Of a stretch of DNA of 64,000 bases, positions 24,679 through 64,000 are shown in pieces. The DNA is from Hydractinia symbiolongicarpus (Eukaryota > Cnidaria > Hydrozoa > Anthoathecata > Hydractiniidae). A program made the translations under genes and the position numbers. Location: contig NC_079880.1 of the NCBI RefSeq assembly GCF_029227915.1, positions 13,028,501-13,092,500 of the forward strand, given 5' to 3'. A model generated the notes under the pieces. The model searched no databases, was not told the origin of the DNA, and saw nothing but the letters and a program-made list of their open reading frames with translations. Each line of letters opens with the position of its first letter. Positions within the stretch are counted from its first letter, which is position 1.

Positions 24679-25385
24679 ATGAAATTCGCTGTGATTTTAG
24701 CAACCTTATTTGTTGTCAGTCTCGGAGCGCCGCTCTATGAAGGTAGGTGAACGATAATAAAAGAACGGTGTGAATGCAAATATATATTATGTTAAGAACA
24801 TTTCCGATATCTTTTTTAGATGAATATAATACTGACAGACTTGCTCAAGATGCGATTGGTAAGTCTAATATACTCTTGTTTAAAGTATGTATTTTTGTAT
24901 GAATTAAAATGTTTTCTTCGTTGTAACATTAAGATGGTGACAACACAGCTGTTAAATCTGATACACATAATGATTTAGCAGCACGTGAGTCAGATCAGTT
25001 CAACAATGGGTGGGGTGACGCATATGGTGTGACCGACGAAACGCAAAAAGATAAGGCATTCGTCACTGACGAACAGAACAAGTCCGACGATGTTAAAGAC
25101 GCGTCAGAAGATGAGTCCCACGTTGTGGACGACGCGTCAGAAGATGAGTCCGACGATGTAGACGACGCGTCAGAAGATGAGTCCGACGATGTAGACGACG
25201 CGTCAGAAGATGGATCCGACGATGTAAACGACGCGTCAGAAGACGAATCCGACGATGTTGATGACACGTCAGAAAATGAATCCGACGATGTTGATGACGC
25301 GCCAGTAGATGAGTCCGACGATGCCGAAAACGGGCCAGTAGATGAGTCCGACGATGCAGAAAACGGGCCGAGTCCGACGATGTAG
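24679..25385 (+). CDS. Secreted acidic Ser/Asp/Glu-repeat protein, copy 1
   Basis: Exons 24679-24742, 24820-24858 and 24934-25385 (phase 1 at both joins) give 184 residues. A signal peptide (MKFAVILATLFVVSLGAP) precedes a short linker (DEYNTDRLAQDAIG), a conserved NNGWGDAYG motif and about nine tandem copies of an 11-residue unit like DASEDESDDVD, encoded by a 33-bp repeat. Close to the end a short deletion in the last repeat shifts the frame and ends the protein at SPTM; the original frame would have run on. I do not know the family. Extreme acidity and secretion suggest cation or calcium binding, a matrix or mucus role, or a charge partner for basic peptides; all of these are inference. Copies at 30981, 39386 and 44581 share exon structure or promoter. 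Confidence 0.85.
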
Positions 25386-25981
25386 AAAATGGGTCAAAGA
25401 TGAGTCAGACGATTAAGGATGGGATCAACAAAGTCTTAAGCGAAAAAAATATAGTGGGAAGAAAAAACCAAGTCAAGAGAATAGCTGGCTTGGTGAATTA
25501 AATGAAAATGTTTTTCTAAATTATGTAAATAAATTATTCATCAAAATGGAGTTTTTCATAAAAATACTGATAAATAAGAATCAACACTTTCTAACAAAAG
25601 CTAAGGAATACTTTCTGACAAAAAAATCAGAACTGCGTCTATAGTAACAATATCAACAGTCAATTAAAATTCAACCTTTCCAATTAATTAACACCCTCTT
25701 TCAAAAAAATTACTAAAGCAAAAGGAATATTGTCGCTAAAAGTTTAAATTTCCTGGTCAAAAAGGTGACGGACTTTCATTTTCCCATGATATAATGTGTG
25801 GAGTCCAACAAAAACGTGTGTAGTGAAAAACTAACGCCTAGTTATCTCCTTTTTGTGAGTAAATAACGCAGCAAAATTGGTGTTGTTTAACTTAATGTTC
25901 CACTTGCAAACTCTTAAAACTCAGCTATTTTAAAGTTATCCTTTTTAACAAATTAGTACATTAATAAAGACGAAGTATACA

Positions 25982-26680
25982 AAATTTCAGGCTACACTTT
26001 CGTAAGACGTCATAGAACTAAACGTCGTAGTGGGAGAGTGGCCATATACTTTAAAGAGAAAGTAAAATTGAAAAAAAGAAGCGAAGTAGAGCGGGAAAAT
26101 GTTGAAAGTTTGTGGATCGAAATTATTTTCTCAAATACAATAAACACTCTCTTGACGTCATATTACAGTCCACCAGAAAGCTCAAATTATTTCACGAAAG
26201 ATTTCAGTGATATATTGAATGAACAGTTGTTACAAGCAACAAAGGAATCAAAAGAAGTCATACTACTTGGGGATTTAAACACCTATTACCTCAAGAGAAA
26301 AGATAGTGAGAATATAAAACAAACGTTGAAATTAAATGGCATTGTATGTCAAATCTCCTACCCGTGTCACAATTAATTCTTCTATATTGATCGACATCAT
26401 TTTAAGTAATAAAGACCGTGAGACTTCAATTCACAATAAAATGAAAATCAAATATTGTTTAACAGTAAAAAGATGTATGTTGAATGATGTTTGTACTTCT
26501 TTGAAAAGTTATTTTATAATTAATGAACATGGAATAAACACTCGAAAAAAAAGGTTGTTATTAAAACTCCTTGAACTTAAATTTGGAAGAAAGTCTTTCC
26601 TCTTTCTTGAGGCTAACTTTACAATTCTATACCCAAGAATATTAGAAAAGTCGAGGCTTTTAATTCTTTTAAAAACCATA
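25982..26680 (+). mobile_element. LINE relic: endonuclease domain fragment
   Basis: Frames 26038-26376 and 26336 onward encode an apurinic-type LINE endonuclease. ILLGDLNTYY matches the GDxN motif, and after a frameshift near 26350 SILIDIILSN matches the L-x-D-x-I-x-S/T-N strand. No reverse transcriptase follows. The same sequence, more complete, is at 40830-43100. Both copies lie downstream of an acidic gene, so the relic was duplicated with it. The clade is probably CR1/Jockey-like, by motif style only. Confidence 0.75.
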
Positions 26681-30980: not shown

Positions 30981-31718
30981 ATGAAATTCGCTGTGATTTT
31001 AGCAACTTTAGTTGTTGTCAGTCTTGGAACGCCGATCTATGAAGGTAGATGAAAGATATTAAAAGAACGGTGTGAATATAAAGATATATATATATCATGT
31101 TAAGAACCTTTCCGATATCTTTTCTAGATGAATATAATGCTGACAGACTTGCTAAAGATGCGATTGGTAAGTCTAATATATTCTTGTTTAAATTATGTAT
31201 TCTTTTATGAATTAAAATGTTTTCTCTCGTTTTAACATCAAGATGCTGACAACGCAGCTGTTGAATCTGACACACATAAATCAATTGATTTAGCAGCACG
31301 TGAGTCAGATCACTTAAACAATGGGTGGGGTGACGCATTTAGTTTTTCCAAAGACTCTGAAAAAGACAACTCGCAAGAAGATGCATCATCCGTCAATGAT
31401 GCAGAAAATACAAGTGATAATGTTGAATACGACCTTGAGGTACAAGAAGATATGTTGGACGACGTAGACGACGTGTTAGAAGAAAACACCGAAGATTTAG
31501 AAAAGTCAGAAGATGACGTGGTCAATTTAGAAGACTCATCAGAAGATGTGTCGGACGACCTAGACGACGCTTCAGAAAATGTGTCAGACGACCTAGACAA
31601 AGCGTCAGAAAACGTCTCCAACGATATAGAAGATGCATCAGAAGATGAGTTTGACGATGCAGAAGACGTGTCTGAAGATTCGGGTTACATTACAATAAGA
31701 AGGCGTGTAGGAAGATAA
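30981..31718 (+). CDS. Secreted acidic Ser/Asp/Glu-rich protein, copy 2
   Basis: Exons 30981-31044, 31128-31166 and 31243-31718 give 192 residues, with joins in the same phases as copy 1. Signal peptide, DEYNADRLAKDAIG linker and NNGWGDAF motif are conserved. The acidic part is less regular than in copy 1, with units like DDLDDASENVS only near the end, so repeats have degenerated or expanded independently. The C-terminus differs from copy 1: after the acidic run it ends in a short basic tail, YITIRRRVGR. The frame is open throughout. Function is unknown. The acidic body and basic tail would allow processing at the Arg run in the secretory pathway, but that is speculative. Confidence 0.85.
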
Positions 31719-37601: not shown

Positions 37602-38934
37602 ATGGCAGGTCTTTTATCTCTTAGTGCATTGCGTTGCAAAAATGTATGTGCCAAGTTTTCAAGCAATTTGATTTCTTCTTTATTTTGTGTTCCACAAGGT
37701 TCCATTTTGGGACCACTGCTTTTTATAATATTTTATGATGATTTTGTAGACCATATCTCAAATTCTAAATTTATAATGTACGCAGATGACACCGTCATAT
37801 TCGTTTCTCATAAAGATGTTACTAGAATTGAACAACTTTTCAATCAAGACCATGAGAGACTATCAGTATATTTTCGTGAAAATGAGTTAATTATAAATCT
37901 AAAAAAGGGAAAACAGAAGTCATGTTGTTCGGAACAGCTAAACGCTTGAAAGCGCATGGCAAGGCTCTACAAGTAGTATGTCAAGAAAATCCGATAAATT
38001 TCGTTTCTCAGTATAAGTATCTGGGAACAGTAATCGACAGCAAGTTAATGCTTAATGACAACTTCGACCGATCATATGAAAGCGCCAGCAGCCGTTTACG
38101 CCTGCTACAAAGATTACGACCGTACCTTACCGCTGAAGCCGCACACAATGTTTTCTCGATGATGATTGTACCTTTAATCACTTATAGTAGTGCATTGAGA
38201 ATACCTTTCACAAATACACAGCTCAACAAATTAAAATCGCTTGAGAACCGTGCTAGATCGATTGTCCGGAGTGATAATATTCCATCCATCACAGGACCCG
38301 TCAACCCTAATATTGGTTGACGGGTCCTGTGTAGTACTCCTTAAAAAGTGTCTACTAAATGAACTAACGTCTGAACATTTTGACAATTATTTTTTCAGCC
38401 AACAACATGACAATAACACATGAAATAACGGCTGCATTGTCAGGTTACCTCGGGTCAAACTAGAAATCGCCCGGAAGAGTTTCTATTTTTCAGGGGTAAA
38501 CTTTATAATTCACCGCCACTTGAAATTCGAAAAATCGATAATATGTGTTTTTTATGAAGGCGCTCAGAGGGTAAAGCTCTTAATAGACGATACCAGCTAT
38601 TGAGCGATGTGCACTCTCAGCGGCTATCTTAGTCACTGTGCCGTCCAGTCTGCTTCAAGTTTGGCTAAGTGGGATTAATGTTTTGAACTCTGCCTATGTC
38701 CTATTTAGCTCTAACATTAAGTCACTTTACAGCTTGTCTGCATACTGTTGCATTTCTATTTGATCAATTTTTTGTTTGTTTTTATCGTTTTTACTGTTTT
38801 TACTGCTTTTTTCCATTTTTATTTTCAGACAGGACGGACATTGATAGCCATTTTTTGTATTTATGTATATATTTACAAATTACTGAAGTCCTCATCCTGT
38901 ATAAATATTTTTAAATAAATAAATAAATAAATAT
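37602..38934 (+). mobile_element. 5'-truncated non-LTR retrotransposon with reverse transcriptase fragment
   Basis: The frame 37602-37949 holds reverse-transcriptase motifs VPQGSILGPLLF and MYADDTVIF, with the catalytic YADD intact. A one-base deletion near 37915 shifts to the frame 37922-38320 (QYKYLGTVIDSKL, YLTAEAAHNVF), typical of the thumb region. A second break follows, and C-terminal residues continue to about 38560. The 3' end has a (AAAT)n tail near 38915-38933, the kind of microsatellite end seen in CR1/L2-type elements. It is clearly inactive. It is more intact than the LINE at 40830 and differs from it, so it is a separate insertion. Confidence 0.85.
38291..38330. repeat. Perfect 16-bp inverted repeat inside the LINE relic
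   Basis: 38291-38306 (acaggacccgtcaacc) and 38315-38330 (ggttgacgggtcctgt) are exact reverse complements around the 8-nt loop ctaatatt. The repeat sits where the reverse-transcriptase reading frame breaks. Confidence 0.9.
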
Positions 38935-39385: not shown

Positions 39386-40250
39386 ATGAAATTTGTCGTG
39401 TGTTTAGCATCTTTATTTGTTCTTAGTCTTGGAGCACCTATCTTTGAAGGTAAAATGAAAAATTTAAAAAACAGTGTAAATGTAAAGATATATTATTTTT
39501 CTAACGTTTGATATTTTTAGTAGATGAATATAGTACTTACAGACTTGCTGAAGATACCATTGGTGAGCCAATATATTCTTGTTTAAAGTATTTTAGACAA
39601 TTTTAGTTATTCTTAATGAGTTTCCTCTGATTTTGTTTAACATTAAGATGATGACAACACGGCCGCTGAAACTAATGGAGATGAATCCAAAATTTTAGCA
39701 GTAAGTGAGTCAGATCTAATAAACGATAATGGATGGGGTGACACATATGGTGTGACCGACAAAACGCAAAAAGGTAAAGCATTCATTCGTCACTGACGAA
39801 CAGAACAAGTCCGACGATGTTGAAGACACGTCAGAATATGAGTCCCACGTTGTAAACGACGCGTCAGAAGATGAGTCCCACGTTGTAGACGACGCGTCAG
39901 AGGATGAGTTCGACAATGTAGACGACGTGTCAGATGATGAGTATGACGATGTAGACGTCGCGTCAGAAGATGAGTCCGACGATGTTAAAAACGTGCCAGA
40001 AGATGAGTCCTACGATGTAGACCACGCGTCAGAACATGAATCCAACGATGTGGAAGACGCTTCAGAAAATGAGTCCAACGATGTTGATGACGCTTCAGAA
40101 AATGAGTCCGATGATGTTGATGACGCGCAAAAAGATGAATCCGACGATGTAGAAGAGGCGTCAGAACATGAATCCGACCATATTGAAGAGGTGTCAGAAG
40201 ATGTGTCCGATGATGGAGAATACGGGCCAGAAGATGAGTCCAACGATTGA
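39386..40250 (+). pseudogene. Secreted acidic repeat protein, copy 3, frameshifted
   Basis: Exons 39386-39449, 39524-39562 and 39648 onward match copies 1 and 2: signal peptide MKFVVCLASLFVLSLGAP, linker DEYSTYRLAEDTIG, then NDNGWGDTYG. In exon 3 a 4-bp tandem duplication (attcattc, 39779-39786) shifts the frame, and the reading ends at TGA (39795-39797). The original frame stays open downstream to 40250, with at least a dozen DASEDESDDVD-type units. Either this is a recent loss or the 4 bp are an assembly error. If translated from the first ATG, only a short peptide of about 85 residues results. Confidence 0.75.
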
Positions 40251-40829: not shown

Positions 40830-43100
40830 TTTCAGGCTACAGTTTCGTAAGACTTGATAGAAATAAGGGTCGTGGTGAGGGAGTGGCTATTTACAATAAA
40901 GAGAAAGTAAATTGAAAAGGAGAGCGAATTAGAACGAAAAAATGTTGAAAGTTTGTGGATCGAAATTATTTTCTCAAATGCCAAAAACGCTCTCTTGACG
41001 TCATATTACAATCCACCAAAAATTAAATGAACAATTGTTACAAGCAACAAAGGAATCAAAAGAAGTCATACTCCTTGGGGATTTAAACACATATCACCTC
41101 AAGAGATAAGATAATGAGATTATAAAGCAAACGTTGACATTAAATGGCTTTGTACAGTATATCAAATCTCCTACCCGTGTCACAATTAATTTTTCTACAT
41201 TGATCGACATCATTTCAAGTAAAGAGAACATTGTTAAAACCGAAGTTATTCCATTGTCTATCAGTGATCACGACATGGTCATCGGCATTCGTAAAATCAA
41301 TTACACAAAATACAAAACGATTTACAAACGAATGAGAAATGTTGCACGTTGTGACCATTAAGAACTCGTCAAAGAACTTAAATCAAGTGATTGACATTCC
41401 ATCTTCATGAAACTGATGTGAATAATGCTGTTATTTTGTTTACAAATATTCTCAACAATGTTTTCGACCGTCATGCACCATTTGTAAGGAGAAAAGTGAA
41501 AGAAAAACCTACTCCATGATTAGACGAATCTGTTAAACCGCACATGGATCAGCGATACAATTTTTGAGAAAAGCAAGGAAATCAAACTTGCCAGAAAACT
41601 GGAGTGCTTACACAAGGGTTTGAAACACGTGTACAAATCTTCTCCGATCAGCCAGGTGCAAATATCATCAGAATCTCCTTAATGAAAACCGCTTAAGTCC
41701 TAAAAACCTTTGGAAAGCTATCAAGAAAATCTTTCCATCGAAAGTAAGAAAACATCACCATCATCAAGTGAATCGGAATCAAACGAGAAAGTATCAAAAT
41801 TTAGAGACTTCTTTGCTTCCGTAGTAAATAAACTAAAGAAAAACAGTTTCAAGTTAGTTGAATTAGTATGGAGAATGCCAAAGGTTTTTCTCTCAAGAAC
41901 TAATTCAAGATTTTATTTCACGTATGTATCTGTAATCTTTGTTCGGAAAGAATTACGAGCACTTAAACGGACGAAAACAACAGGTCTGGACCAACTTCCA
42001 CCTTCCCTTCTGAAAGATGTGGCTGACGTAATATCAGTACATCTTACACACATAATAAACCTATCATTAAAATCAAACCTTCCCGTCACTATGGAAACAA
42101 ACAAAGATCATACCGGTCTTCAAGAGTGGAAATTCTGCGGATCCTTTGAACTACAGAAGAATCTCTGTGGCTTTACCAACACTCTCAAAGATTCCGGAGA
42201 AGGCGGTAAACTAATAGATTAATTGGAAGACAATCGCCTGTTAAACAAATGTCAGTTTGGATATAGAAAGAACCGTTCAACTGAATCTGCAGCTACTATT
42301 CTCGTGGGCCATATCTGAAATGAAGTCGAGGATAAAAAACTTCTCGGAGCAGTATTCATGAATTTAAGTGGCGCATTTGATACTTCTAGCCACAGCGTAC
42401 TTATCGAGATGCTTAACTTTTATGGTCTTAACCATGGAGTGGTAGCATGGTTTGGTGATTATCTGTTTTGTAGAACTCAGGTGGTTGAAGTAGACACTAC
42501 ACTCTCTACACCTTTCCAGCTAACGTTAGGAGTACCACAAGGGTCGATATTAGGCCCATTGCTGTTTTTAATTTACTTCAACAACCTGGCAGACCATCTT
42601 CATTATATTCGTTTTCTAATGTATACAGATAACACTGTAATCTACTAATCCGACAACGATATTTAAGCTATTGAGTGTGCTGAACTCCGAGTTTGAAAGA
42701 GTTTTTTGTTACATGAACGATTCTGAGCTAATAATGAATTTAAAAATTGGAAAAACAGAATCAATGTTGTTTTGCACTTCAAGAAAGTTATCAAAAATGC
42801 CATAAGACTTTGAAGTAAAGCACAATAACTATGCTATCAATGTTACCGACGAGTAAAGCTATTTAGGCAATATCATTACTCCAACTTCAAACTTGGACAG
42901 AAACTTTCAAGAGCGTTATAGAAAAATGTCCAACAGGATCAAATTGTTAACAAAAACTTGTGAATATCTAACACCTGAAGCTACATATAAAGTATATGAT
43001 AGCATGATTGAAGCACTGATGTTGTACTGTGGTTCATTAAACTTAGATCTTACTTCAACCCAGCAAAAGAAGCTTACAAGTATAATAGATTCAATTTGAC
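40830..43100 (+). mobile_element. Decayed LINE with endonuclease and reverse transcriptase
   Basis: Endonuclease pieces lie at 40836-41361 (SDHDMVIGI and FSTLIDIIS motifs). Reverse transcriptase lies in 42358-42648, with VPQGSILGPLLFLIYF and MYTDNTVIY: YADD has become YTDN, so the active site is lost. A thumb-like frame is at 42893-43099. Many stops and frameshifts occur. It shares flanks and its endonuclease part with the relic at 25982. It lies within the duplicated block downstream of acidic copy 3. Confidence 0.85.
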
Positions 43101-44580: not shown

Positions 44581-45640
44581 ATGAAAATCGCCGTATGTTT
44601 CGCAGCTTAATTTGCCATCAGCTTTGCAGCGCCAATCTATGAAAATAAGTCCTTAGAAAATTAGATGTGACGTATGGAAAGTAATAAACTTTCTGATTGC
44701 TGGATTTCCCTTTTTAAACTGCTTGTTATTCAAAGTCATCTTAAATAAAGTTACTCTTTTTAATTCCTAGACAAAAAAATACAGTGGATGAAGTCGGAAC
44801 AGCTGCTGGAGAAGTAAATGCTGTATCTGTCCGTGAAACGGAAGTAGAAAAAGAGTTGGGAGATCTAGAGGTGGCAGAACAAGACCGTGAAGTACACCAC
44901 TCAGAGGATGTAGATGATGCTGTAGATTATTCCGACATAAAAGACGACGCCGAAGATTAATCCGACGTTGAGTATGATGCCGAAGTTCAGTCCGATGTTA
45001 AAGATGATGCCGATGTTCAGTCCGACGTTGAAGACGATGCCGAAGATCTGTCCGACGTTAAAGATGATGCCGAAGATCTGTCCGACGACGTTAAAGACGA
45101 TGCCGAAGATCTGTCCGACGACGTTGAAGACGATGACTATGTTCAGTCGACGTTGAGGACGATGTCGAAATTCAGTCCGACATTGAGAACGATGCCGAAA
45201 TTCAGTCCGACGTTGAGGACGATGTCAAAGATCAGTCTGACGATGATGACGATGCTGAAAGTCATTCCCACGTTGAGAACGATGTTGAAAATCATTCTAA
45301 AGCTAGCTATAACGAAAAATACGATGCTTCAGAAGATGATTATGAAAATGTCGACACGCAAATTAACTCTGACACACAAGGTAACTCTGACACAGCACAT
45401 GACATGTCGAAAGTTGATGACTTTAAAGATGTCGAAGACGATATTCCCGAAAATGATTACAATGATACAGACGATGTGTCGGAAGATGAATCCGACAGGT
45501 CCGAGACAGAATTTGTAGAATCAAATGATGACACTGATGATAAAATCGATAATGAAACAGAAGTCAACAAGGAGGAGGAAAAGGTGGAGGACACAAAAGA
45601 GGAATCCAGCTTAGATATGGACTTGGTATGGCTACGATAG
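44581..45640 (+). pseudogene. Decayed copy 4 of the acidic secreted protein family
   Basis: The start MKIAVCFAA is followed by TAA at codon 10, then FAISFAAPIYE as in a signal peptide, and the usual GAAG|gt donor has become gaaaataagt. Further on, acidic repeats of a new type (about 14 residues, DVKDDAEDLSD) run with an in-frame stop at 44957-44959 and a frameshift near 45146. Acidic sequence resumes to 45640 (DDVSEDESDRSETEF), ending DMDLVWLR. It is almost surely a pseudogene, though the last exon could be read by another transcript. Confidence 0.7.
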
Positions 45641-50088: not shown

Positions 50089-50389
<301 letters not shown>

Positions 50390-51835
50390 CGCTATATCAA
50401 CCTTAGGTGGACACTCTGAAAATTCGAACTAAAAGTGGACATATAAAAACCATGTTTTTTCGCAAACCCTTACCCCCTATAACCTTTATTTTTGTATAAG
50501 GAGTATTCTTTTTGTCTGCGTATGCGCCCTGTATGCCTTTTTGCCTCTTAAAAAAAATTTGAAATTTTTGTGTCTACATAACGATTCCATATGATTTGTG
50601 TCTACTTTAAGAAAATTTTTACATTAGATCGACTAAATGTAGACAGATATATATTTTATATACATGAGCGTTAAACCCGATCATCTGATAATTATTAATA
50701 TTGAACTGCAATATTGTCTTTTTAAAGACATTTGTCTCATTGTTGTAAGTGATATTTTTTATAATCTGTATGAAAACAAAAAAGAAGCACACGTTAGCAG
50801 CTGTCCAGTTCGGAGAAAAAATATAAAGGAAAAAACACAAATTATAGCATCCTTAACATGTATTTAAGAGTATGTGAATTTGTACCAAAAGTTTGGTTAC
50901 AATTTAAGAACTAGCTTAATGAAGCAGCAAAATGCGTGGAAGTGGTTTATGTGGGTACAAAACCAACAAACAACGAATGCAACAATTGCGCTTTGTAAAG
51001 AGGATCTTAAGCAACATTAAGGGCATTAAAACTGTTGCTTTTGCATGTATTCGATCCGATACGTTTTTTACAGGGTTCACATACAGCTTTTAAACCAAAT
51101 TTTTCCCTGACTTTTCATTGAATTCTATATTCTTTGCCCTGAGTCACTGAGTGGAAAGGCCATGATTTCCCAGCATACAATCAGTAAAAAAAACCCTTTC
51201 AAGACATTTTGTAGTTTGCAAACGAACACAACTTATACTGTTTTTGCTATGATGTAGTAACTACGGGTTATAAATTTTCCTTAAATTTTTTTAAGATTTT
51301 GAGGTTTTTAAGGCTGCTGGGTTTGTTTAAAAAGATACAAAACTAAGAGTGTCAAAATAAAAGTGTATTCCTGAAACTTCCAAACACATGACATGCGTAG
51401 TAATAGACTCCTTTGAACATAACAAAAATCAAAAAAGAAAGAAGAACACCTAAATCTATAATATGCGTTATTAAAAACAACAGAACAAGGGTAAAAATGA
51501 AAAAAAAGGGTAAACACATAAAATTCAGTATTTTCATACATTTTTATATGCAAACAAAAAAACAAAAAACGATTAATCATTTGCTGCTTCTTCGAATTTA
51601 AATAAACGAACCTGGATAACCAAGCAGTTATATCTTACTAATTCCACAGAAATTAACTTCCTTTTCCTTTTTCTCATTTGACACTAGTTATATAATGGGG
51701 CTGCGTAAGGAAGGACTGAGAAATCAAGAAACGTACGCTAAATGATAATCTGTTTAACGCCTTAAACCTTCCTAAATGTATCACCTTGTACGAACTATAT
51801 CACGAATAAACGAGAAATAACTGTGTAAACAAGAT

Positions 51836-52206
51836 ACCTTCAGGGAATTAATTTTCGCGGGGACTTATTTTCGCAGAATTTTTTTTTACTAGAATTTGGC
51901 GGGAAAAAAGGGAATTTATTTTCACAAATTTAGTGTTGAAGAAAATTTCGCGGTAACTTATTTTTGCGAATTATGCAAATTTGGAAAAACAACTATTCCG
52001 GTGAGTTATTTCGAAACAACATACAGAAGAGAAAGGAAAATGTCCCAGAGAAAGTTATACATCATTGTCTTTTGTATCAGGCCGATTTGGAAATTTCCCA
52101 GATCAGGGATATTTAAACTTTTCGCGGCGACGTATTTTCGCGTTTTTGGAAAAACTCCGAAAAAACCGCGAAACTTAATACCCGCGAAAATTAATCCCCT
52201 TAAAAG
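51836..52206. mobile_element. MITE-like element with TIRs, TTCGCG-rich
   Basis: The left end ggaattaattttcgcgggga mirrors the right end cccgcgaaaattaatcccc. The body repeats ttatttTTCGCG-type motifs in both orientations. Same style as 12353-12890. Open frames across it are not genes. Confidence 0.6.
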
Positions 52207-52495
52207 ATATACTTCACTTATGAGAGCCAGTTTTCTTATCACATACAGTTATGAAAACCACACAGTTCAAAATATTTTTCATGGGAGAGGGGGGAGAGTT
52301 GAATTAAATTATCGTTGATCATACATTTTGATTGTTAAAACATGATTGAAACCTGTATAGAAATTATCCTCGTGACTTTAACACTTTTTCTTGCCTTTCT
52401 CCCCGTCTAAGGGGTGACGGAGTGATGTGTTGTTTAGACTTGAATTTTTTAGAGTATACTCAAGAAAATTTGATGATGATAAAAGCTGTCACATT

Positions 52496-52534
52496 ATTTA
52501 TAAAAACATGTATAGTGTACATGTTTTTATAAAT
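52496..52534. repeat. Perfect 17-bp hairpin downstream of the SET-recombinase gene
   Basis: atttataaaaacatgta (52496-52512) and its exact reverse complement (52518-52534) flank the loop tagtg. It starts 94 bp past the stop codon of the minus-strand gene ending at 52628, so it probably lies in its 3' UTR or at its 3' end. Confidence 0.85.
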
Positions 52535-52627
52535 GTACTTTTGTAAACATAATAAATAATTATAAACATGTACTTTTATGGTAACGTAAAAATAATAAAA
52601 ATAAAAGAAACCAAAGCTCTATCACAA

Positions 52628-55600
52628 TTAAACAATGTTCATTTTCTTTTTTTTCGCTTCCGCTTGTCGTGCTATTTTTCCTCTTTCATTGTTAATTTTA
52701 TTTCGAACAGTTCCAACAGTAATTCCTTCCTCGTTGGCGAATTTTTTCAGATCATCAGAGCCTACACATACACAAATATTAGATATTCAAAAACATGTTT
52801 TCATAATTAGTGCAAAACATACATGTCATACATACAAGGCCATCCATTTTTTTTATTTTTTATATGTCTTGCAAATTTTTTGTATAGTTTATCCTCTTGC
52901 TCTGACGACCATTGAATGTATTTTCTTTCTTGTTGACCTGTAAAAGAAAACATTACAAGATTAATTTATACACGAAAAGGGCATACAAATTTCAATGATT
53001 TCATTCTTATTTCGTCCTCCAATAGAAGAGAAGAAATTGTCGCGGAAGCAATTTTTGCGGATGGATGCTTTCAAAAATTGTATGAAATATGCGAAATAAA
53101 AAAGTTACGAATAGTCTCATTTAGTTGCAATTGAAAATCTTTAATCAGATTGTTGGAATCTCAACTTTGCGGATGCCCGCCCTTGTCTGGTAATTTGTGG
53201 AATTTTGGTTTGTGAAAACAAATTCGCAAACATTAATTCCACCATCTTTATTATCATTTTCATTTCTTTATTTCAGTATTTCTTTAATGAATTTTTTTCC
53301 ATATTTTAAAAAGGTTAATTATCTATATTATAATACCCGTTTACGTCTGTCTGTCTGTCTGTCACGCAAAATGGTAGCTTAGCTGCGCAATAGCGAGAAG
53401 CACGCAATGCGGTATAAAAAGGACGGGCGAACCCGTGGATTTTCCACGGGCTAACGACGAATAGCGAATTAATAATTATTAAGTATTATAGGGATTAAGA
53501 TAATCTATTTCTTTTTATTAGTTTCTGTATATTTTCGGACTCCAATTTCAAGAATATGGAAATAAATATTGTGAAAACGGATACGATGATTTCGGATCTA
53601 AGCTGTCTGCGAGTTGTATCAAATAAACTTTCGTGTTCAAGTACAATAATTTCATTTATTTGACGCAAAATATTCCACTTTAGCAATATTTTCATTTTCG
53701 GCAATTACGCAGCAATTTTTAAGATATTATTCTTTTTAGCTGTTGTTTATCACCGGTAAGTACAATCAACTAATTTTTGCAATTTCATATACTATATATA
53801 GACAGACCAAGAAATTAAAAAATATGGTACTTTTTGATTTTTCTTAGTAAGGAGTTATACAGTATTGTTGATTAACAAAACCTCACCAGTGCATTTTACA
53901 GAATTCTCGAGTTCGCTATCTTCACTTGATTCAGACCATTCAGAAGGTTCATCATCGTTCACATTTGTAAAATGTTTGGATTCTTCAGATGTTTCTAAAC
54001 CGTTAAAAACATTGTAACTTTATTGAAAAATCAGGAAAAAATTAGGGAAAATCAGAATATAAAGCATCACTTTGCAAACAACCAGTAACTTGTTTATAAA
54101 GAAGTTAAATGCTGACAAAAAACAAACAACACAGGATATCATTTTGAAAACACAAAATCATGGAAATCAAGACATACTTTGAGAAACGTTCTTTTCTTTT
54201 CTAAGTGCATACTTTCTCGTGGGTGCTAAAAGGAAAACGGCTTTCAGTCATTTTGCAATCAGGTATTGTAACAAAGTTAACTTACACAACAGAAATACTA
54301 AAAAAATTGACTATTTATACTGTCCTTCCCTAGTAACAAATATTATGTGTGATGTTTTATGACGTCACTATAAATCTGAGATCGTGTTTTCGCTATTGAC
54401 CATCTAAGTCGAATAGGTTGGTTTTTCACGTAAATTTTGTTTACATAGGGGCTTTTATTCGAAGCCCTGTTCTGAAAACAAACATTTTATTTGCAACGTA
54501 AGGCTCTAATGATTCAAAAACGAAAATGTTTCCAATAATACATAATATTTTGTGAATAAAATCTTATTGTTACGCAATGAACTAACCGCAAGTTTTCTCT
54601 TTTTTAAATGTATCGTTTCGATGAGTTTGTCTTTTTTCTCCCACTTGTACACTTTTCTTCATTTTCTTTTTATTCGGTAATTTTACAGTGTTCGCTTTAC
54701 TTGTGTCTTTTTCAGCATTTTCATCTACAAAATACATTTACAACGTAATTCAAGCCTGTATGTAGGTAATTACGAACAAGTTAGACCTGAATAGAATGAA
54801 GAGTCAAAAGAACTTACTTTGGAAGAATTTCAAAATTAAATTTCTTGTTTGACTGCTCACAAGGAAAAGAAGTATGCCAATATGAACAGCCATAATTCTA
54901 AGTTTTACCTCTAAATTTTTTTTCATTTTCTTCAACTAAGTTAGGACCCTTTTTCTCGAAGTTATTGTCATTCTTTATACTTTGCGCTATAAGAAGATAT
55001 GCGTTTGTTTCACTTTTAAAAAATTGATACACAAGAATAGACTACAGAAAAACAGCTCACCATTATCAAGGACAGATAGATGTTTCCCAGTTGACAATAG
55101 TTGTCGATGAGCAGCTGGTGCTTGGTATATCGTTTTGTTAATTCTCTCACTGTGCCCAAAATGATCATAGGCCAAACTCATATCGGACTCTGATAGACCT
55201 AAACCAGCAATTAAGGTACTAAGGCGATGTCGGTTACTTGTACCACTAATTCTTTCTCTGTTGGCAATTGGAAGTTTTGCACAAACATTATCTAAGCTAT
55301 GCCATCCAGAGCAATGATTATCAGAACCTTGGGTACTGGGAAATATGTATGAGTTTTCTTCAAGGACACCAGCATCTTTCCTTACTTGCTCGTTAGCCAA
55401 CAACTTCATTGCAGCAACAGTATCTTTAGGAATAAAAACAGGAACTAAATGGTTGACTCCTTTTCCCGATTGAAATGTGATCTTTGTCCCACTGCTTAAG
55501 TTAGTTTCTTTTGCAATATCCTGTATCCGCTGTTTGTCTAACCATTCATCCTTTTCAGCTTCAATCCACTGCGTAACGGTTAGACGCGATGGTTCTCCAC

Positions 55601-58600
55601 CTCTTCGGCCATTATACAGCACAAGACGAGTGCAAGCACAATCACGTAGTTCAACAAACGTATGTCTGTCCATGATGATAAATGGATCTGATGATAAGTG
55701 GCGTATCCTTTCAATCACATAATCTCGAATTAGTTGGACATCGCCTTCGTTTGGAAGTTGTGCAGGTTTTTTAGTTTTTACATTCCTTCTCATGTTTAAA
55801 TCATACGTTGCGTCAGCGAATATTTCATCTTTGCGTAATTTCAGCAATACCAAAAAGTTTTTAATTTTTTCTGCATCAACATCATTATTTTTACCAAGGT
55901 AATAACCAATTAGTTTTTCGGCGGCGTCTTTCAACACGTAGTACAAGGCTGCCTTAAGTCCTGACTTTTGAACTTCCAAATCAGAATGAGTGTAGGATTC
56001 AATAGAATATTTCAGCACCTCAAAATTTTCCCTCAGAAACATGTCACCAGCATTGTTTTTGTCATTACAACAATCTCTTGGTACTTCCAACACCCTATCT
56101 TTAAATCTGGAATAAACATGTGCCAGACGACGCATGTCGCTTCGAACAGACCGTTCAACTTCCATCTTTTTGTTTAGTCTTCTTTTTATTTTGCCATAGA
56201 GGCGATGACCAACCATCAAAATAACGGGATCCGATTTGGCAAGAGTACCAACGGCATCGTCTCTGATGATGTTCAAAATTCTCTGCTTAAATTGATCATC
56301 CGATAGCTTCCATGACTCATCACTAGTACAATCCAGAGCAATTGTAACAGGAAATTGACAGGAGTTCTTTGAGCAGTCTGCCTTGTGCCTAGCTTTAAAG
56401 GTTTTGGCATAAAATCCTTTGCAGGTGGTGCACATAACAAGTGGGTCATCTGAATCGTTTTGCTTTTCACGCAACAAATTTCTACCGCCCTCCTCAATTT
56501 CTTTAACATTATGATTATATATGCCAATTTTTCGAAAGTTAGCGAAGGCTCTCAGTCTTTCTTTTCGAGGCATGTTCAAAGCATCCTTTACATCTGGATG
56601 ATGCTTATGACATAAAGTGATGTGTCTATTTAATTTCGAATGCTTGATCTTTTTATCGCAAACAAAACAGGGTCTCAATGGTCTTGAGTTTATCTACGAA
56701 TAAACATCACGCCTAAGCTACTTAACCGTTTATTCTTACAAAATGTTTAGCATCAGATTTATCAGATTTGTCGGAGACAAAGGGGTTCAAATAAGCAATT
56801 TAGGAAAGAAGCTGCGTTTAAATTGCCAATATTACAAAAAGAAGCTCTTGAGCATCAGTTATTCTTGTTTCAGCAAAGAGTCTGGATTCAACTTTTAAAT
56901 GCAGTGACTTAACGGCGTCAACGAAACAAACAAAAAATAAAATTACCTGTTTGGCTTCTTTTTCCTCAGATTTTCCCACTTTCTAGTAAAAAAAGCAAAA
57001 GGTTATAAAAGTTAATATATCAAGTGCAAAACATAAGAATACATTTTTAGCATCCAGTGAAGTTATGGATTATCTTGTCAAGATCTTTTAAAATAAACAA
57101 AAAATAAACACTACCTCGTTGGCGCTTTTCTTTACAGATGTTTCTTTCTTCTAATAAAGATACAAATCAGGCTATAGGAAAGATGTCAATCGCAACATTA
57201 TGTACATACATTATGTTCAATTCTTATTTGATTCGATTGCTACGGCATGTCATATCCTTCCAATGTCAAATGAAACGCCGCCTTTAGTTCGTTTGATGTA
57301 AATTCTAGGCCTTATTATAATATATAAAATAGAGTCGCTTTTTATAACTAGAACAAACTAATAGTTACACAACATCGGGTATTTTAGAAGGCTAAAGAGG
57401 TACATACTTAAAAATATGATTAATACTTTCGACATAAAATACCAATAAACCCTATAATTAGAAGGAACCTAACTTTAACTTTGGATTTTAAAGATTGCGT
57501 AAAAAAAGTCAGGGATTAAGAAAGAGAAATGACACTATGCGTAAAAAAATGATAACGTCAAAGATTGTAGTTATGCAAACCGAACATTCTCCTTATAGGA
57601 CCACGGAACATTACCTCTATAGCAATACTGTTCTCCACTTTTCCTTCCTCGTCTGTATCAATGATTTCCATATCGTCTTCAACATTTAATCCGGAATCAT
57701 TTTTCACAGAAATCTGAAAGAATCGGCATTAAACAATTTATTTTAGTAGGGTAATTTTATAGCATAACGTGTTATTTACCATAAATCTTCTTTAAATACT
57801 TATGATCAATTAAGATAAAAACCTTTTGATTTTTACGTATCCATTTACACTTTCCTCGTTTGCATAACAAAGTATTGTATGGAATTTCGGAATATCATAC
57901 ACTAAGCTGCTATCAAGTTACCTCACATATGGATGGACTGTCCGTAGTAAAATCAACCTCAAGATTGTCTAAAAAAATTAAACCTATTTTAAACCAAAAT
58001 AACAAAGGACACTTTTTAGCCAATGGACCAATTAAAATAAATACTTAAAACAGACACAGTATGGCTTTTTTAAAACAGATAAAAACAGTTTATAAAATGG
58101 GACTTGATAAAGGTGAGCGGGTTAGTATTTACGAATAAAAGCGAGCAGGTTATGAGTTCTAAGTTACAACAACAGAGTCCTTTTTGGAAATCCAGTTATA
58201 TATCATATGAGAACATGCTTTATTCAGAAGGATTTTTTGAAGGCCCAGAATTCGAATAACAACTTAAAATCATTGCACTAAATGCAAAAAGAATCAGTCA
58301 CATTGGAGCTTAATAGAAAATTAATTTAATGTAGATGGCAGCTTTACCTTTATCAATACTTGTTTGCACACCTGAAGCCTATGAACAAGACAAATGTGAC
58401 TTTTACTTTTAAGTTAAATTAAATTAAAGAAGGGAAGAGAATAAATTTAGTTAGCAGAATTTTTTCATGGCATACAATTAATATTTATGCTATCTTTATA
58501 CTTCCTAGATTATGGCAAACAAGCGTCTAGAGACTTTCAATTTAAAAACGAACACGCGAGATTATAAACTTAGAGAATTGACCACTGAATTATAAAATAG

Positions 58601-61346
58601 CAGTTGTTTGGTATCTTTGACGGCAATAAACAAATCACTCAATCTATTTATGGCGTTATGATTTATAATGAAAAATGTTACACCATGAAAATTTTACAGC
58701 GTTCATTTTCACAATTTTAATGAATTAAAATTGTGGAAGTTGTTTTGAAGTTCCTATCATACCTTATACTGAACTGATAGTTTTCTAGTCTGTATCGGAG
58801 TTGAAACTGTGACCTAAGAGCATTTAAATTTATATAATTGATAGTAATTTTAAATGCAATTATGTCTAGGAAGCATGACATTCAACAAAGTATGTATTAC
58901 AAAAGCCTATACCAGTCCGATTTCCTCATATGGACAAAGGTTTAGGTTTAATTTCTTGAATACGCAAAATTATAAATTACTTACAGACGAAATATGATTC
59001 AAAGTATCCAACTCTGAAATATCTTCTGCCTCTTCAGAATCTTCAACCATGGACTAAAAGGAGAACAAACATTTTTATTGTTATCAGCAATTATGCTAAC
59101 ACAAACAAATTATGATTTAAATTAATTTAACATTAGTGCCGTAATTTCTGTTATGTAAACCGTCAATGTAATCATAGAAATATATATGACCACAACAATA
59201 ATAAAGCAAAACTAAAAAGTCCATGAATAGTGCACCAAACTCAAATAGGCTTACCATAAAGGGAAGTAAATTTATTAACCTAGTAAATAAAGACGTAAAG
59301 AATTTAAATAATATTAAACTTTATAACACCAAGACTCTCCATTGCCAGCACTGTGACATTAAGAAAAAAGAAACAAAAATTATACATGTTGCCACTTGAT
59401 TTTAGTCCCTCATCTTCACTGTCTGAAAAATCTGGCACCATATTTTCCATCTTAAAAATAAAGAATGTTAAATTTAACAAGAACTAGTTTAAGATTTGGC
59501 ACACTCAATTTACAACATTTTTTAAAAAAGTTTGTCTTATTCCTATGCTAGAACAGATTGTGTGCTATGTTTCATAAAGCTTGTATTTCTTAGCAGCCAC
59601 TCTGAAAACGAGTCTTAGAAGCTTTGAATCAAAAATAACAATTTTAAAAGAACCAGGTATGTAAAGATTCAATTCTCTAATAAAAAAAATCATTTTTACT
59701 TGGCAGCCCATGGCTCAACTGGGATTTTGTACCTGGCCTTTAAAAAATAATAAGGTGATGCTTTTCCTTAAACAGCAAAATGTAGTAGCTTTACCACTTT
59801 ACATACTTCAATTTACATTGAATTTTTTATAAAATTAGAAAATATAACAAGTTTATCACCTGAGTTGCCACCACATCATCAAGCAATTTTTTGAGAATAT
59901 CTGTAATGATACCCACATTTTCGTCATTATCCTCCTTCTAAGAAGATATTATCAGTGTTCACATTTCAAAAAACAACATTCGTTTTGCTATATCAACTGT
60001 GTCTTATTTTTTATCACGTTTACCTTTTTTGCAATGACATCAGAGGTCAAGTTATTCTTGCCTTGGACCAAGGTCAAGTTCTTACTCAACACCTGAAACA
60101 ACAAATATCATAGAAAAGGAAGATCCCAAGAAACTAGAAAATGGATAAAACATATTGCTAATGGACGACCTTATTATATGCACACTTACTATTTATTACA
60201 TGTAATATAAAAACTTACTAGCCTATCTGAAACTAGGTCTTCTAAATTGAATGGTATATTATGTGTTGGATCCTACAAGAAACAAACAGTTTTATTTGAC
60301 TGTTCTTTCATATATGTATATATCTTTTATCCTAGAAGTTTTTTTTAAAACATGTCCGAAAGCTGTGTTCAAAATAAAAGCTGTTTGACATACAACATAC
60401 TTGCAGACAACAAGCTTAGGCATACTCAAAAGAGGAAAATATAAATTTTGTTAATTGTGTGCTACCTTTTGCCATTCTAGCCCTGAAATTCCATAATTGT
60501 ATCGCAGTTCAGTTCCTAAAGGAATGTCATAGGAAGCAAACAAACATATGAATGCATTTCCACCCTCCTCGATCAATTTTGGATAACAATTCAAATATTT
60601 CCGATGACTTGAATGGTTCACATATTTTCCCAGCCTGGTCTCATTTGTAGCATCAACACTAAAAATTTAAAAAATATATTAAGACATAGAGAACTATAGA
60701 AGGGAACTGTTTGTAGTTTCGTTTTTATCTTTACCATAAGATGTTTTAAATCAAATTGCAAAAAATCCAAAACAGAAATTGTTTATGTCTATATGTAATT
60801 TGATGTAAAAGCTAAGTAGTCTTAACTTCCTGGTGCTACTTTGGTACGTCAAGCTTACATAAAACACATCTACACTCCAATTCCTAAATAAGACCTTCTA
60901 TTTTCACCTTAGCTATTAGGTGAATGTGATCCAACTTCAAGTGCCTCCCCAAATGAAACTGAAAACAAAAGGCATTCTCAATTCGACATACCACTTTTTG
61001 TCCATAAAGAAAATAAATGATCCACAGGAAGTTGGATACTCTAGCTCTAATCTCTCTCCTTCCTTTCTTGTGAGAACTTTTCCAGGATATTGCAGGACAA
61101 ACTGGTGATGTTTCAGGGGCAATGTTGTAAACACACCATATCCTACAAATATATGTTTACCACACATCTATTCTGTAATCATTAAGAAGTTAAGTTATAA
61201 CAGTTATTCAAAAAAATAACAAATTTACCAATGTGATCATTAATCCATTTCTTTACAAATGATTTTGGATCAGTTCCCCTTTTACAATAATATAGTGCAG
61301 TTTGTCTTGGCGATTTAACATCATTAGCTCTACTTCTTTTCGTTCT
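52628..61346 (-). CDS. SET methyltransferase-tyrosine recombinase-Myb-like fusion protein (5' partial, 21 exons)
   Basis: Exons (minus order): 61346-61229, 61142-60992, 60658-60466, 60272-60219, 60092-60024, 59937-59860, 59450-59386, 59279-59255, 59053-58985, 58378-58348, 57968-57922, 57713-57615, 57150-57115, 56982-56947, 56693-55061, 54986-54909, 54724-54587, 54225-54178, 53994-53887, 52937-52836, 52761-52628. All joins keep phase; the sum is 3312 nt (1103 residues plus stop). Residues 40-154 form a KMT5A-like SET domain: GYGVF, CVDATNETRLG, YVNHSS, ELRYNYG. Residues 155-357 are an acidic linker. About 366-470 hold two zinc-finger-like motifs (CFVC...; CTTC...H-x3-C). About 670-885 is a tyrosine-recombinase domain: Arg720/721 in NGRRGGE, Lys768 in SGKGVNH, Arg847, His871 in FGHS, Tyr880. 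Residues 1030-1090 look like a Myb/SANT-type helix-turn-helix (WSSEQEDKLYKKF, TVRNKINNE). The recombinase exon has no ATG of its own. Role is inferred: chromatin-linked DNA binding or transposase-derived. Confidence 0.8.
53322..53460 (+). mobile_element. Helitron-like element in an intron of the SET-recombinase gene
   Basis: It starts A|TCTATATTATAATACCCG and ends cccgtggattttccacgggctaacga, close to the copy at 19687-19837 over its whole length. The 3' CTAG is mutated (cgaata). It lies between exons 53994-53887 and 52937-52836. Confidence 0.75.
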
Positions 61347-61383
61347 CTAAAGAGAATTAAGTAATACAAGTGAGTCAGTAAAA

Positions 61384-64000
61384 TAATGCCGAAATTATCA
61401 TTTGAAATTGGACATATCAAAAACATAAATTTTAAAACTCAAAGTGGACATATACATAAACATTTCCTTTTTACATATTTTTGAATAGTTAAAACTAATA
61501 TGTCTAAATTATCATCCTAAAGTGGACATGTCAAAAACATAAATTTTAAAACTCAAAGTGGAGATATACATAAACATTTCCTTTTTACATATTTTTGAAT
61601 AGTTAAAACTAATATGTCAAAATTATCATCCTACAGTGGACATATCAAAAACATAAATTTTAAAACTCAAAGTGGACATATACATACACATTTCCTTTTT
61701 AAATATTTTTGAATAGTTGAAACTAATATGTCGAAATTATCATCCTAAAGTGGACATAACAAAAACATAAATTTTAAAACTCAAAGTGGAAATATACATA
61801 CACATTTCTTTTTTAAATATTTTTGAATAGTTAAAACTAGTCGAAATCTTTCTTTACATATTCTTGAATATTAAAAATAATTTTATCTTGAAATTATCAT
61901 GCTAAAGTGGACATATCGAAAACATAAATTTTAAAACTTAAAGTGGACATATACATTTTCTTTTTACATATTTTAAATAGTTAAAACTAATATGTCGAAA
62001 TTATCATCCTAAAGTGGACATGTCAAAAACATAAATTTTAAAACTCAAAGTGGACATATACATAAACATTTCCTTTTTACATATTTTTGAATAGTTAAAA
62101 CTAATATGTCGAAATTATCATCCTAAAGTGGACATATCAAAAACATAAATTTTAAAACTCAAAGTGGACATATACATAGACATTTCCTTTTTACATATTT
62201 TTGAATAGTTGAAACTAATATGTCGAAATTATCATCCTAAAGTGGACATATCAAAAACATAAATTTTAAAACTCAAAGTGGACATATACATAAACATTTC
62301 CTTTTTACATATTTTTGAATAGTTAAAACTAATATGTCGAAATTATCATCCTAAAGTGGACATATCAAAAACATAAATTTTAAAACTCAAAGTGGACATA
62401 TACATAAACATTTCCTTTTTACATATTTTTGAATAGTTAAAACTAATATGTCGAAATTATCATCCAAAGTGGACATATCAAAAACATAAATTTTAAAACT
62501 CAAAGTGGACATATACATAGACATTTCCTTTTTACATATTTTTGAATATTTAAAATAATTTTATCTCAAAATTATCATGCTAAAGTGGACATATCGAAAA
62601 CATAAATTTTAAAACTTAAAGTGGACATATACATTTTCTTTTTACATATTTTAAATAGTTAAAACTGATATGTCGAAATTATCATCCTAAAGTGGACATA
62701 TCAAAAACATAAATTTTAAAACTCAAAGTGGACATATACATACACATTTCTTTTTTAAATATTTTTGAATAGTTAAAACTAGTCGAAATTATCATCCTAA
62801 AGTGGACATGTCAAAAAAATAAATTTTAAAAGTCAAAGTGGACATATACATAAACATTTCCTTTTTACATATTTTTGAATAGTTAAAACTAATATGTCGA
62901 AATTATCATCCTAAAGTGGACATATCAAAAACATAAATTTTAAAACTCAAAGTGGACATATACATACACATTTCTTTTTTAAATATTTTCGAATAGTTAA
63001 AACTAGTCGAAATTATCATCCTAAAGTGGACATGTCAAAAAAATAAATTTTAAAAGTCAAAGTGGACATATACATAAACATTTCCTTTTTACATATTTTT
63101 GAATAGTTAAAACTAATATGTCGAAATTATCATCCTAAAGTGGACATATCAAAAACATAAATTTTAAAACTCAAAGTGGACATATACATAAACATTTCCT
63201 TTTTACATATTTTAAATAGTTAAAACTAATATGTCGAAATTATCATCCTAAAGTGGACATGTCAAAAACATAAATTTTAAAACTCAAAGTGGACATATAC
63301 ATAGACATTTCCTTTTTACATATTTTTGAATAGTTAAAACTAATATGTCGAAATTATCATCCTAAAGTGGACATATCAAAAACATAAATTTTAAAACTCA
63401 AAGTGGACATATACATAAACATTTCCTTTTTACATATTTTTGAATAGTTAAAACTAATATGTCGAAATTATCATCCTAAAGTGGACATATCAAAAACATA
63501 AATTTTAAAACTCAAAGTGGACATATACATAAACATTTCCTTTTTACATATTTTTGAATAGTTAAAACTAATATGTCGAAATTATCATCCTAAAGTGGAC
63601 ATGTCAAAAAAATAAATTTTAAAACTTAAAGTGGACATATACATAGACATTTCCTTTACATATTCTTGAATATTTAAAATAATTTTATCTCAAAATTATC
63701 ATCCTAAAGTGGACATACCAAAAACATAAATTTTTAAACTTAAAGTGGACACATACATAGAAATTCCTTTACATATTCTTGAATATTTAAAATAATTTTA
63801 TCTCGAAATTATCATGCTAAAGTGGACATATCAAAAACATAAATTTTAAAACTTAAGGTGGACATATACATTTTCTTTTTACATATTTGAAATAGTTAAA
63901 ACTAATATGTCGACATTTTCATCCTAAAGTGGACATATCAAAAACATAAGTTTTAAAACTCAAAGTGGACATATACATAAACGTTTCCTTTATACATATT
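61384..64000. repeat. Tandem array, ~114-bp unit, at least 2.6 kb
   Basis: About 23 units run to the window edge. Each unit carries aaagtggacatat twice, once before caaaaacataaattttaaaa and once before acataaacatttcc, then ttttgaatagttaaaactaa and gtcgaaattatcatcct. Some units are shortened by about 10-12 bp. The array starts about 40 bp upstream of the acceptor of exon 61346-61229, so it is probably intronic to the SET-recombinase gene. Confidence 0.95.

Follow-up and report, generated by a model that had tools for sequence, protein, structure and literature searches.

Which partner captured the other when a chromatin-type SET domain and a tyrosine recombinase (YR) came to lie in one gene? 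The question is raised by a stretch of 64,000 nucleotides of the hydroid Hydractinia symbiolongicarpus (the whole stretch is called the window hereafter; assembly position G000:C6:13028501-13092500, in an assembly of 481 Mb), where a sequence-only reading had placed such a gene on the minus strand and had considered it a host gene with a captured transposase. Our analysis favors another answer. With a probability of about 0.8, the window holds one copy of a young tyrosine-recombinase DNA transposon, the single gene of which encodes a SET domain, zinc-finger-like motifs, the YR and a helical C-terminus. The direction of capture is more likely the reverse of the one first proposed, and the mobile element would be the carrier of a KMT5A-like SET domain.

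The evidence that carries this interpretation is the number and nature of the copies. When the recombinase protein was compared with the assembly, at least 83 matches were found (77 of 255 candidates scored). Among the matches listed, nine are full-length, 100% identical recombinase copies, located on C4, C6 (three), C8, C9, C12, C15 and C19, and three further near-identical copies (C15:3010075, C41 and the end of C6) are broken or truncated at the edge of a contig. One copy on C11 is 91% identical and broken, and the remaining matches are more distant. We compared 30-kb stretches round six copies together with the 20-kb contig C19. The block in common was 17,488 bp in three copies and 17,374 and 17,387 bp in two, and the C9 copy was without the first 134 bp. 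Pairwise identity of the block was 99.90-99.96% at equal length of its tandem array and 98.3-99.5% otherwise, and the flanks outside the approximately 17.5-kb block differed between copies. Between the SET exons and the 3′ end, a span of 10.9 kb, seven copies differ at 2 of the 3,362 coding columns and at 37 of the remaining 7,610; 28 of these 37 are due to two 14-bp insertions, and the insertion of copy F lies inside exon 53994-53887. A DNA search with the 5′ end located ten sites, all of them at known copies; nine of the matches are complete and one starts at base 135. The SET profile matched the genome at no fewer than 112 places (150 of 232 candidates scored), and a SET domain of equal score was present upstream in 11 of the 12 near-identical copies, the twelfth, on C41, starting at the contig edge. 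The span first assigned, 52628 to 61346, is too narrow, since the element runs from window position 50390 to beyond 64000. Its features are the following.

50091..50388, no strand: (TA)149 tract beside the 3′ end, presumed target (Tandem Repeats Finder; like tracts at 7/7 right junctions)
50390..50413, minus: 3′ terminal arm, inverted repeat of the family's 5′ end, 18/24 bases (end comparison)
50390..64000, minus: in-window part of the mobile element, the 5′ end of which lies beyond 64000 and is read only in siblings (block common to six sibling copies)
52629..54724, minus: last five exons, basic linker and C-terminal three-helix domain (54724-54587, 54225-54178, 53994-53887, 52937-52836, 52761-52629; exon chain, helices modelled)
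54909..54986, minus: in-frame 78-nt exon, missing from NCBI isoform X3 (exon chain compared with P0002)
55061..56693, minus: exon of 1633 nt, two zinc-finger-like Cys/His clusters and the tyrosine recombinase (residues, fold model)
56947..60092, minus: eleven short exons, acidic linker, poorly conserved and of low confidence in the model (chain, alignment, structure model)
60219..61346, minus: four exons, SET domain and its C-terminal extension (61346-61229, 61142-60992, 60658-60466, 60272-60219; chain, Pfam, PDB match)
61392..64000, minus: array of tandem repeats (period 114 bp) within intron 1, holding 41 of the 42 TGTCCACTTT decamers of the window (Tandem Repeats Finder; sibling copies)

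Inspection of the ends showed that the element adjoins (TA)n at every junction that could be read, five on the left and seven on the right, and (TA)n runs of at least 16 bp make up 546 bp in about 68.6 kb of other flanking sequence. A target-site duplication is indistinguishable because the junctions themselves lie in the TA repeat. The terminal inverted repeats are 24 bp long and imperfect (18/24 bases, uncorrected P 3.6e-6). The motif GTGGACA is found in both ends; counted on the two strands together, the element contains 63 occurrences for an expectation of 1.03. Of these, 53 sit in the intron 1 array, and the 42 TGTCCACTTT decamers compare with 0.18 expected for the whole window. The motifs of the array are presumed to be protein binding sites. 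When the arms are joined end to end, they face each other round a TA core, as in a YR site, the usual plan of which is two inverted repeats of 11-13 bp flanking 6-8 bp (PMC3212892). Rfam returned nothing for window 50-64 kb.

The coding part of the window copy consists of 22 minus-strand segments with AG/GT borders, from 61346 to 52629, the final one closing at a stop. Chained, they keep a single phase with 0 stops over 1120 residues, the remaining two frames having 63 and 122 stops. The best protein match to the chain is P0002, the NCBI 'uncharacterized protein LOC130657627 isoform X3 [Hydractinia symbiolongicarpus]', with 98% identity and 100% query coverage. P0002 corresponds to the chain without exon 54986-54909 and with 11 additional N-terminal residues, the exon for which lies outside the window; in the siblings this exon can be read at base 923 of the element, where it has the donor GTAAGT. 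The gene of the element is a single gene of 23 coding exons, the first outside the window. The chain and phases of the earlier reading were confirmed, and its count of 21 exons was corrected to 22, of which isoform X3 lacks one. From the phase-matched, stop-free chain and the NCBI protein we judge, on sequence grounds, that SET and recombinase in one gene model is a real fusion.

The SET domain was recognized by Pfam (E 2.1e-11), and SETD8/KMT5A was the best PDB match (E 1.4e-11), KMT5A occupying the top rows and resembling it in sequence and fold. The window copy retains GYG, CVDAT, NHS and YxYG, so the KMT5A-like SET with intact GYG, NHS and Y-x-Y-G motifs that had been read from the sequence is well founded. 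In a tree that took in only three host or reference SETs, the element SETs stood with KMT5A, separate from the two other host SETs (94/89), and 15 of 17 element SETs grouped together (85/91). A single origin of all element SETs was neither supported nor rejected by the tree (23/3), and a grouping of the Anneissia SET and one sea urchin SET with KMT5A was not rejected (p-AU 0.27). In addition, SET and YR identities were uncorrelated among 18 proteins (Spearman -0.11; 1548 of 2000 permutations as high), and therefore we make no claim of one capture. SET may have been captured repeatedly or exchanged. When the P0003 SET served as query against proteins, three were returned.

By kinship with KMT5A, the SET part may methylate nucleosomes, at H4K20, although we hold this with low confidence. 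The strongest competing view, compatible with a mobile element, is that SET is real and constrained and has no enzymatic role, binding nucleosomes or histone tails and so placing the recombinase. Two substitutions speak for such a role: 17 of the 21 readable SET-YR proteins show ND instead of the NH of NHS, and the window copy itself, which retains the His, has Phe at the position aligned by eye with a KMT5A residue that we take to be Tyr245, which argues against activity. The retained GYG, CVDAT, NHS and YxYG of the window copy speak for an enzyme, and so does conservation, SET identity being close to that of the YR and well over that of the linker (P0002 with P0003: SET 44%, YR 55%, linker 21%; with sea urchin P0006: 40%, 41% and 9%). 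We regard a non-enzymatic SET as distinctly possible and on balance doubtful.

The 1633-nt exon gave no accepted Pfam match when searched alone, only zf-C4 under the cut-off (E 0.079). Its predicted model matches tyrosine recombinases, and the catalytic Arg, Lys, Arg, His and Tyr, assigned by position, are retained in the window protein, which bears out the recombinase fold first read on this exon. We collected 131 YR relatives, partly from 120 of 140 matches listed, and all five residues, assigned in the same manner, are present in 122 of them. The 'Myb-like' label of the C-terminus found no support in Pfam, with no Myb match in six C-terminal pieces (E ≤ 5), and the domain, modelled as three confident helices, is unrecognised by Pfam. 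As a separate observation, P0023 and P0028 of Apostichopus japonicus keep SET and have His, Arg, Arg, Tyr and Asp at the five recombinase positions; they are perhaps domesticated or decayed.

Mobility by the YR itself has to be weighed against movement by another enzyme, for instance a DDE transposase acting in trans on the TA-flanked inverted ends, with the recombinase in some other role. Inverted ends and TA flanks also suit DDE transposons such as the Mutator-like elements on TA microsatellites (PMC4486113). However, the retention of the YR residues in the relatives argues against it, as does the (TA)n right end common to a second SET-YR family described below, and by eye the element has no further long open frame except a 109-amino-acid piece resembling a reverse-transcriptase relic. 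This explanation is therefore unlikely. The piece is a minus-strand frame in intron 1 (element bases approximately 2410-2737, sibling copy D), assigned by eye. No frame of reverse-transcriptase length was found among element frames of at least 90 amino acids, and Pfam gave no reverse transcriptase in P0002, an exon-split reverse transcriptase not being sought.

The same architecture recurs in the genome. The 83 listed recombinase matches were merged into 64 YR loci. A SET match in the same orientation lies no more than 20 kb upstream at 27 of them, downstream at 0 of 64, and there is one on the other strand, with about 0.15 expected. These 27 loci are not independent: 11 belong to the present family, 4 and 4 to two other multi-copy families, and 8 are others. 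The second family (C7:23735914 and C2:32318330) is 99.95% identical over 20,363 bp; its SET exon is visible in the frame translation and unlisted by the SET profile, and of its ends the right ones were read, which are (TA)n in both copies. In these right ends (L031, L032), CCCTAACGTGGA... stands before the TA tract, resembling CCCTAATGTGGACA at the 5′ end of the window family, and the likeness is perhaps a shared binding motif.

Signs of mobility were looked at in Hydractinia alone, and the YR relatives show how far the architecture extends. A purpose-built profile detected SET in 26 of the 131 (30 profile matches minus human KMT5A and the three proteins from the P0003 SET search). The hosts named for both domains are the cnidarians Hydractinia, Hydra and Clytia, the echinoderms Strongylocentrotus, Apostichopus, Anneissia and, weakly, Diadema, the molluscs Argopecten and Mytilus, and the tunicate Styela. 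The search of other animals suggested with the sequence-only reading was thus rewarded in hydrozoans, echinoderms, molluscs and a tunicate. A search of IMG/VR for a viral carrier gave 31 stretches that fitted a pattern, and tblastn found 0 relatives among them.

Two observations stand beside these. P0042 (Hydractinia) and P0082 and P0084 (Hydra) combine SET-YR with a protein kinase domain, found by Pfam for P0042 and P0084 and given by a precomputed label for P0082. Repeated SETs with no linked YR match occur at C2:13181258, C11:17864678, C13:19350270, C14:11854056, C53:3520 and C4:27109146, and also at C6:18057139, C8:14721492, C11:26625721 and others, with six matches at an identical 58.6 bits and one set accompanied by frames of about 130 amino acids; these are perhaps other SET-bearing elements.

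The recurrence bears on a further alternative, namely that SET and recombinase are separate transcripts wrongly joined by gene models. The models of P0004, P0005 and P0007 begin without SET, and the joined gene here is known from gene models. Against this, the exons are phase-matched throughout, joined models are found in all the animal groups named above, and the NCBI isoform skips one in-frame exon. Even with two transcripts, SET and recombinase would travel in one element. We consider such a misjoining quite unlikely.

Domestication of a Crypton-like recombinase as a host gene, with the other copies as gene duplicates, would agree with the count of 23 coding exons and with the presence of a joined domain of host type, and domesticated Crypton genes exist (PMC3212892). 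However, what the copies on several contigs have in common is exactly one block, the fixed ends of which lie in TA tracts, and outside it their sequences differ; the catalytic residues kept here are lost in the domesticated genes as described in that source. The captured transposase in a host gene does not survive nine identical recombinase exons, blocks of approximately 17.5 kb with 98.3-99.96% identity, differing flanks and TA tracts; a count of copies had been proposed as a check, with many nearly identical ones as the outcome counting against a host gene, and that outcome was obtained. We reject domestication, a very improbable reading, because of the copies, ends and target, and a host gene that tamed a transposase is likewise contradicted by near-identical copies that share fixed ends within TA repeats. 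An assembly artefact is hardly credible. Short contigs or contig edges hold some of the copies (C19, C41, end of C6), but others are embedded in large contigs, where flanks and array lengths vary and private differences occur.

Several results weigh against a mobile SET-YR element moved by its own recombinase. The case for mobility is one of sequence, with no empty site, circle or transcript in view. SET is not a constant partner, as 37 of the 64 YR loci have no SET match within 20 kb upstream and 105 of the 131 relatives have no detectable SET, where loci and gene models, respectively, may be incomplete. The absent correlation of SET and YR identities and the Asp for the His of NHS in most readable SET-YR proteins also count against the interpretation. 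For the recombinase, R, R and Y of the R-H-R-Y tetrad are kept; at the first His of HxxR the window protein has Thr, a later GHS position keeping a His; among the 131 relatives this residue is Thr in 109 and His in 0. Foldseek with the recombinase model gave no significant match, and PDB sequence searches (A1 profile; P0114) gave no recombinase.

For the SET-bearing transposon that we prefer, the following course is proposed. With fair confidence, the protein would bind GTGGACA in the terminal arms and likewise in the array; the two ends would be joined round the TA core, probably as a circle, and integration into another TA tract would follow by strand exchange. With low confidence, SET may methylate nucleosomes (H4K20 by kinship) at the element or target, and this may set chromatin state, timing or escape from silencing. 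A link of a chromatin mark with the recombinase, also part of the sequence-only reading, is something we infer. Taken further, the family may represent a class of animal transposons writing their own histone mark, in which the SET-YR protein would bind ends and array, methylate nucleosomes at H4K20 or elsewhere, and control transcription, excision or TA-tract insertion, in several phyla and with lineages still mobile in Hydractinia; this is a tentative idea, to which we give a little less than an even chance. Hosts silence transposons via chromatin, and an element with its own SET methyltransferase-like domain may reverse that relation. The young copies in a tractable hydroid make the idea of a SET acting on chromatin testable. 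The element would also be a recombinase transposon of one intron-rich gene, its ends and target being defined, and new fusion genes of animals might arise from SET-YR elements.

Among known systems, Cryptons share with the Hydractinia element that they are DNA elements which encode a tyrosine recombinase but lack their own reverse transcriptase (PMC3212892). They occur in cnidarians, sea urchin and molluscs, and some oomycete Cryptons carry a captured C48 peptidase; as described there, Cryptons have no terminal inverted repeats and short terminal direct repeats or none, and animal Cryptons have neither a C-terminal domain nor terminal repeats (PMC3212892). In contrast, the Hydractinia element has SET, zinc-finger-like motifs, a C-terminal domain, 23 exons, inverted ends (18/24), a (TA)n target and Thr for the first His. 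Crypton YR / DUF3504 gave no Pfam match at E ≤ 0.5 (8 proteins) or 0.1 (8 others), a comparison of profiles only. The element appears to work like a YR transposon, and we do not file it as a Crypton. MuTAnT elements also target TA microsatellites, but are Mutator-like plant elements with another enzyme class (PMC4486113). Retrotransposons with captured cytosine methyltransferases are likewise mobile elements with a chromatin-related methyltransferase; theirs is a DNA methyltransferase in dinoflagellates and charophytes, whereas here a histone-type SET is carried by an animal YR DNA element (PMC5890265). KMT5A/SET8, the H4K20 methyltransferase, shares SET sequence and fold, CVDAT, NHS and YxYG, and differs in that the Hydractinia SET is fused to a recombinase in a mobile element, with ND for NH in many relatives. 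DIRS/Ngaro elements have their own reverse transcriptase, whereas the Hydractinia element shows only the 109-amino-acid relic-like piece. The fungal Starships are large YR elements with a separate DUF3435 captain gene and cargo genes, whereas the Hydractinia element has one fused gene. DUF3435 had no match in Pfam scans of the recombinase exon and relatives, a missing profile match being no proof. No SET-recombinase element was described among the papers listed in literature searches, subscription papers and Repbase being outside their coverage.

Elsewhere in the window, all on the plus strand, endonuclease/exonuclease-like (under cut-off) and reverse transcriptase pieces at 25957-26376, 37602-37949 and 42319-42648 are probably retroelement remains. 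Four open frames rich in Asp/Glu/Ser repeats lie at 24933-25385, 31236-31718, 39756-40250 and 44961-45640; the first two have a common N-terminal stretch, and the second is without a Pfam match. At 5253-8417, exons of a Frizzled-type and a tyrosine kinase domain look like a receptor tyrosine kinase gene.

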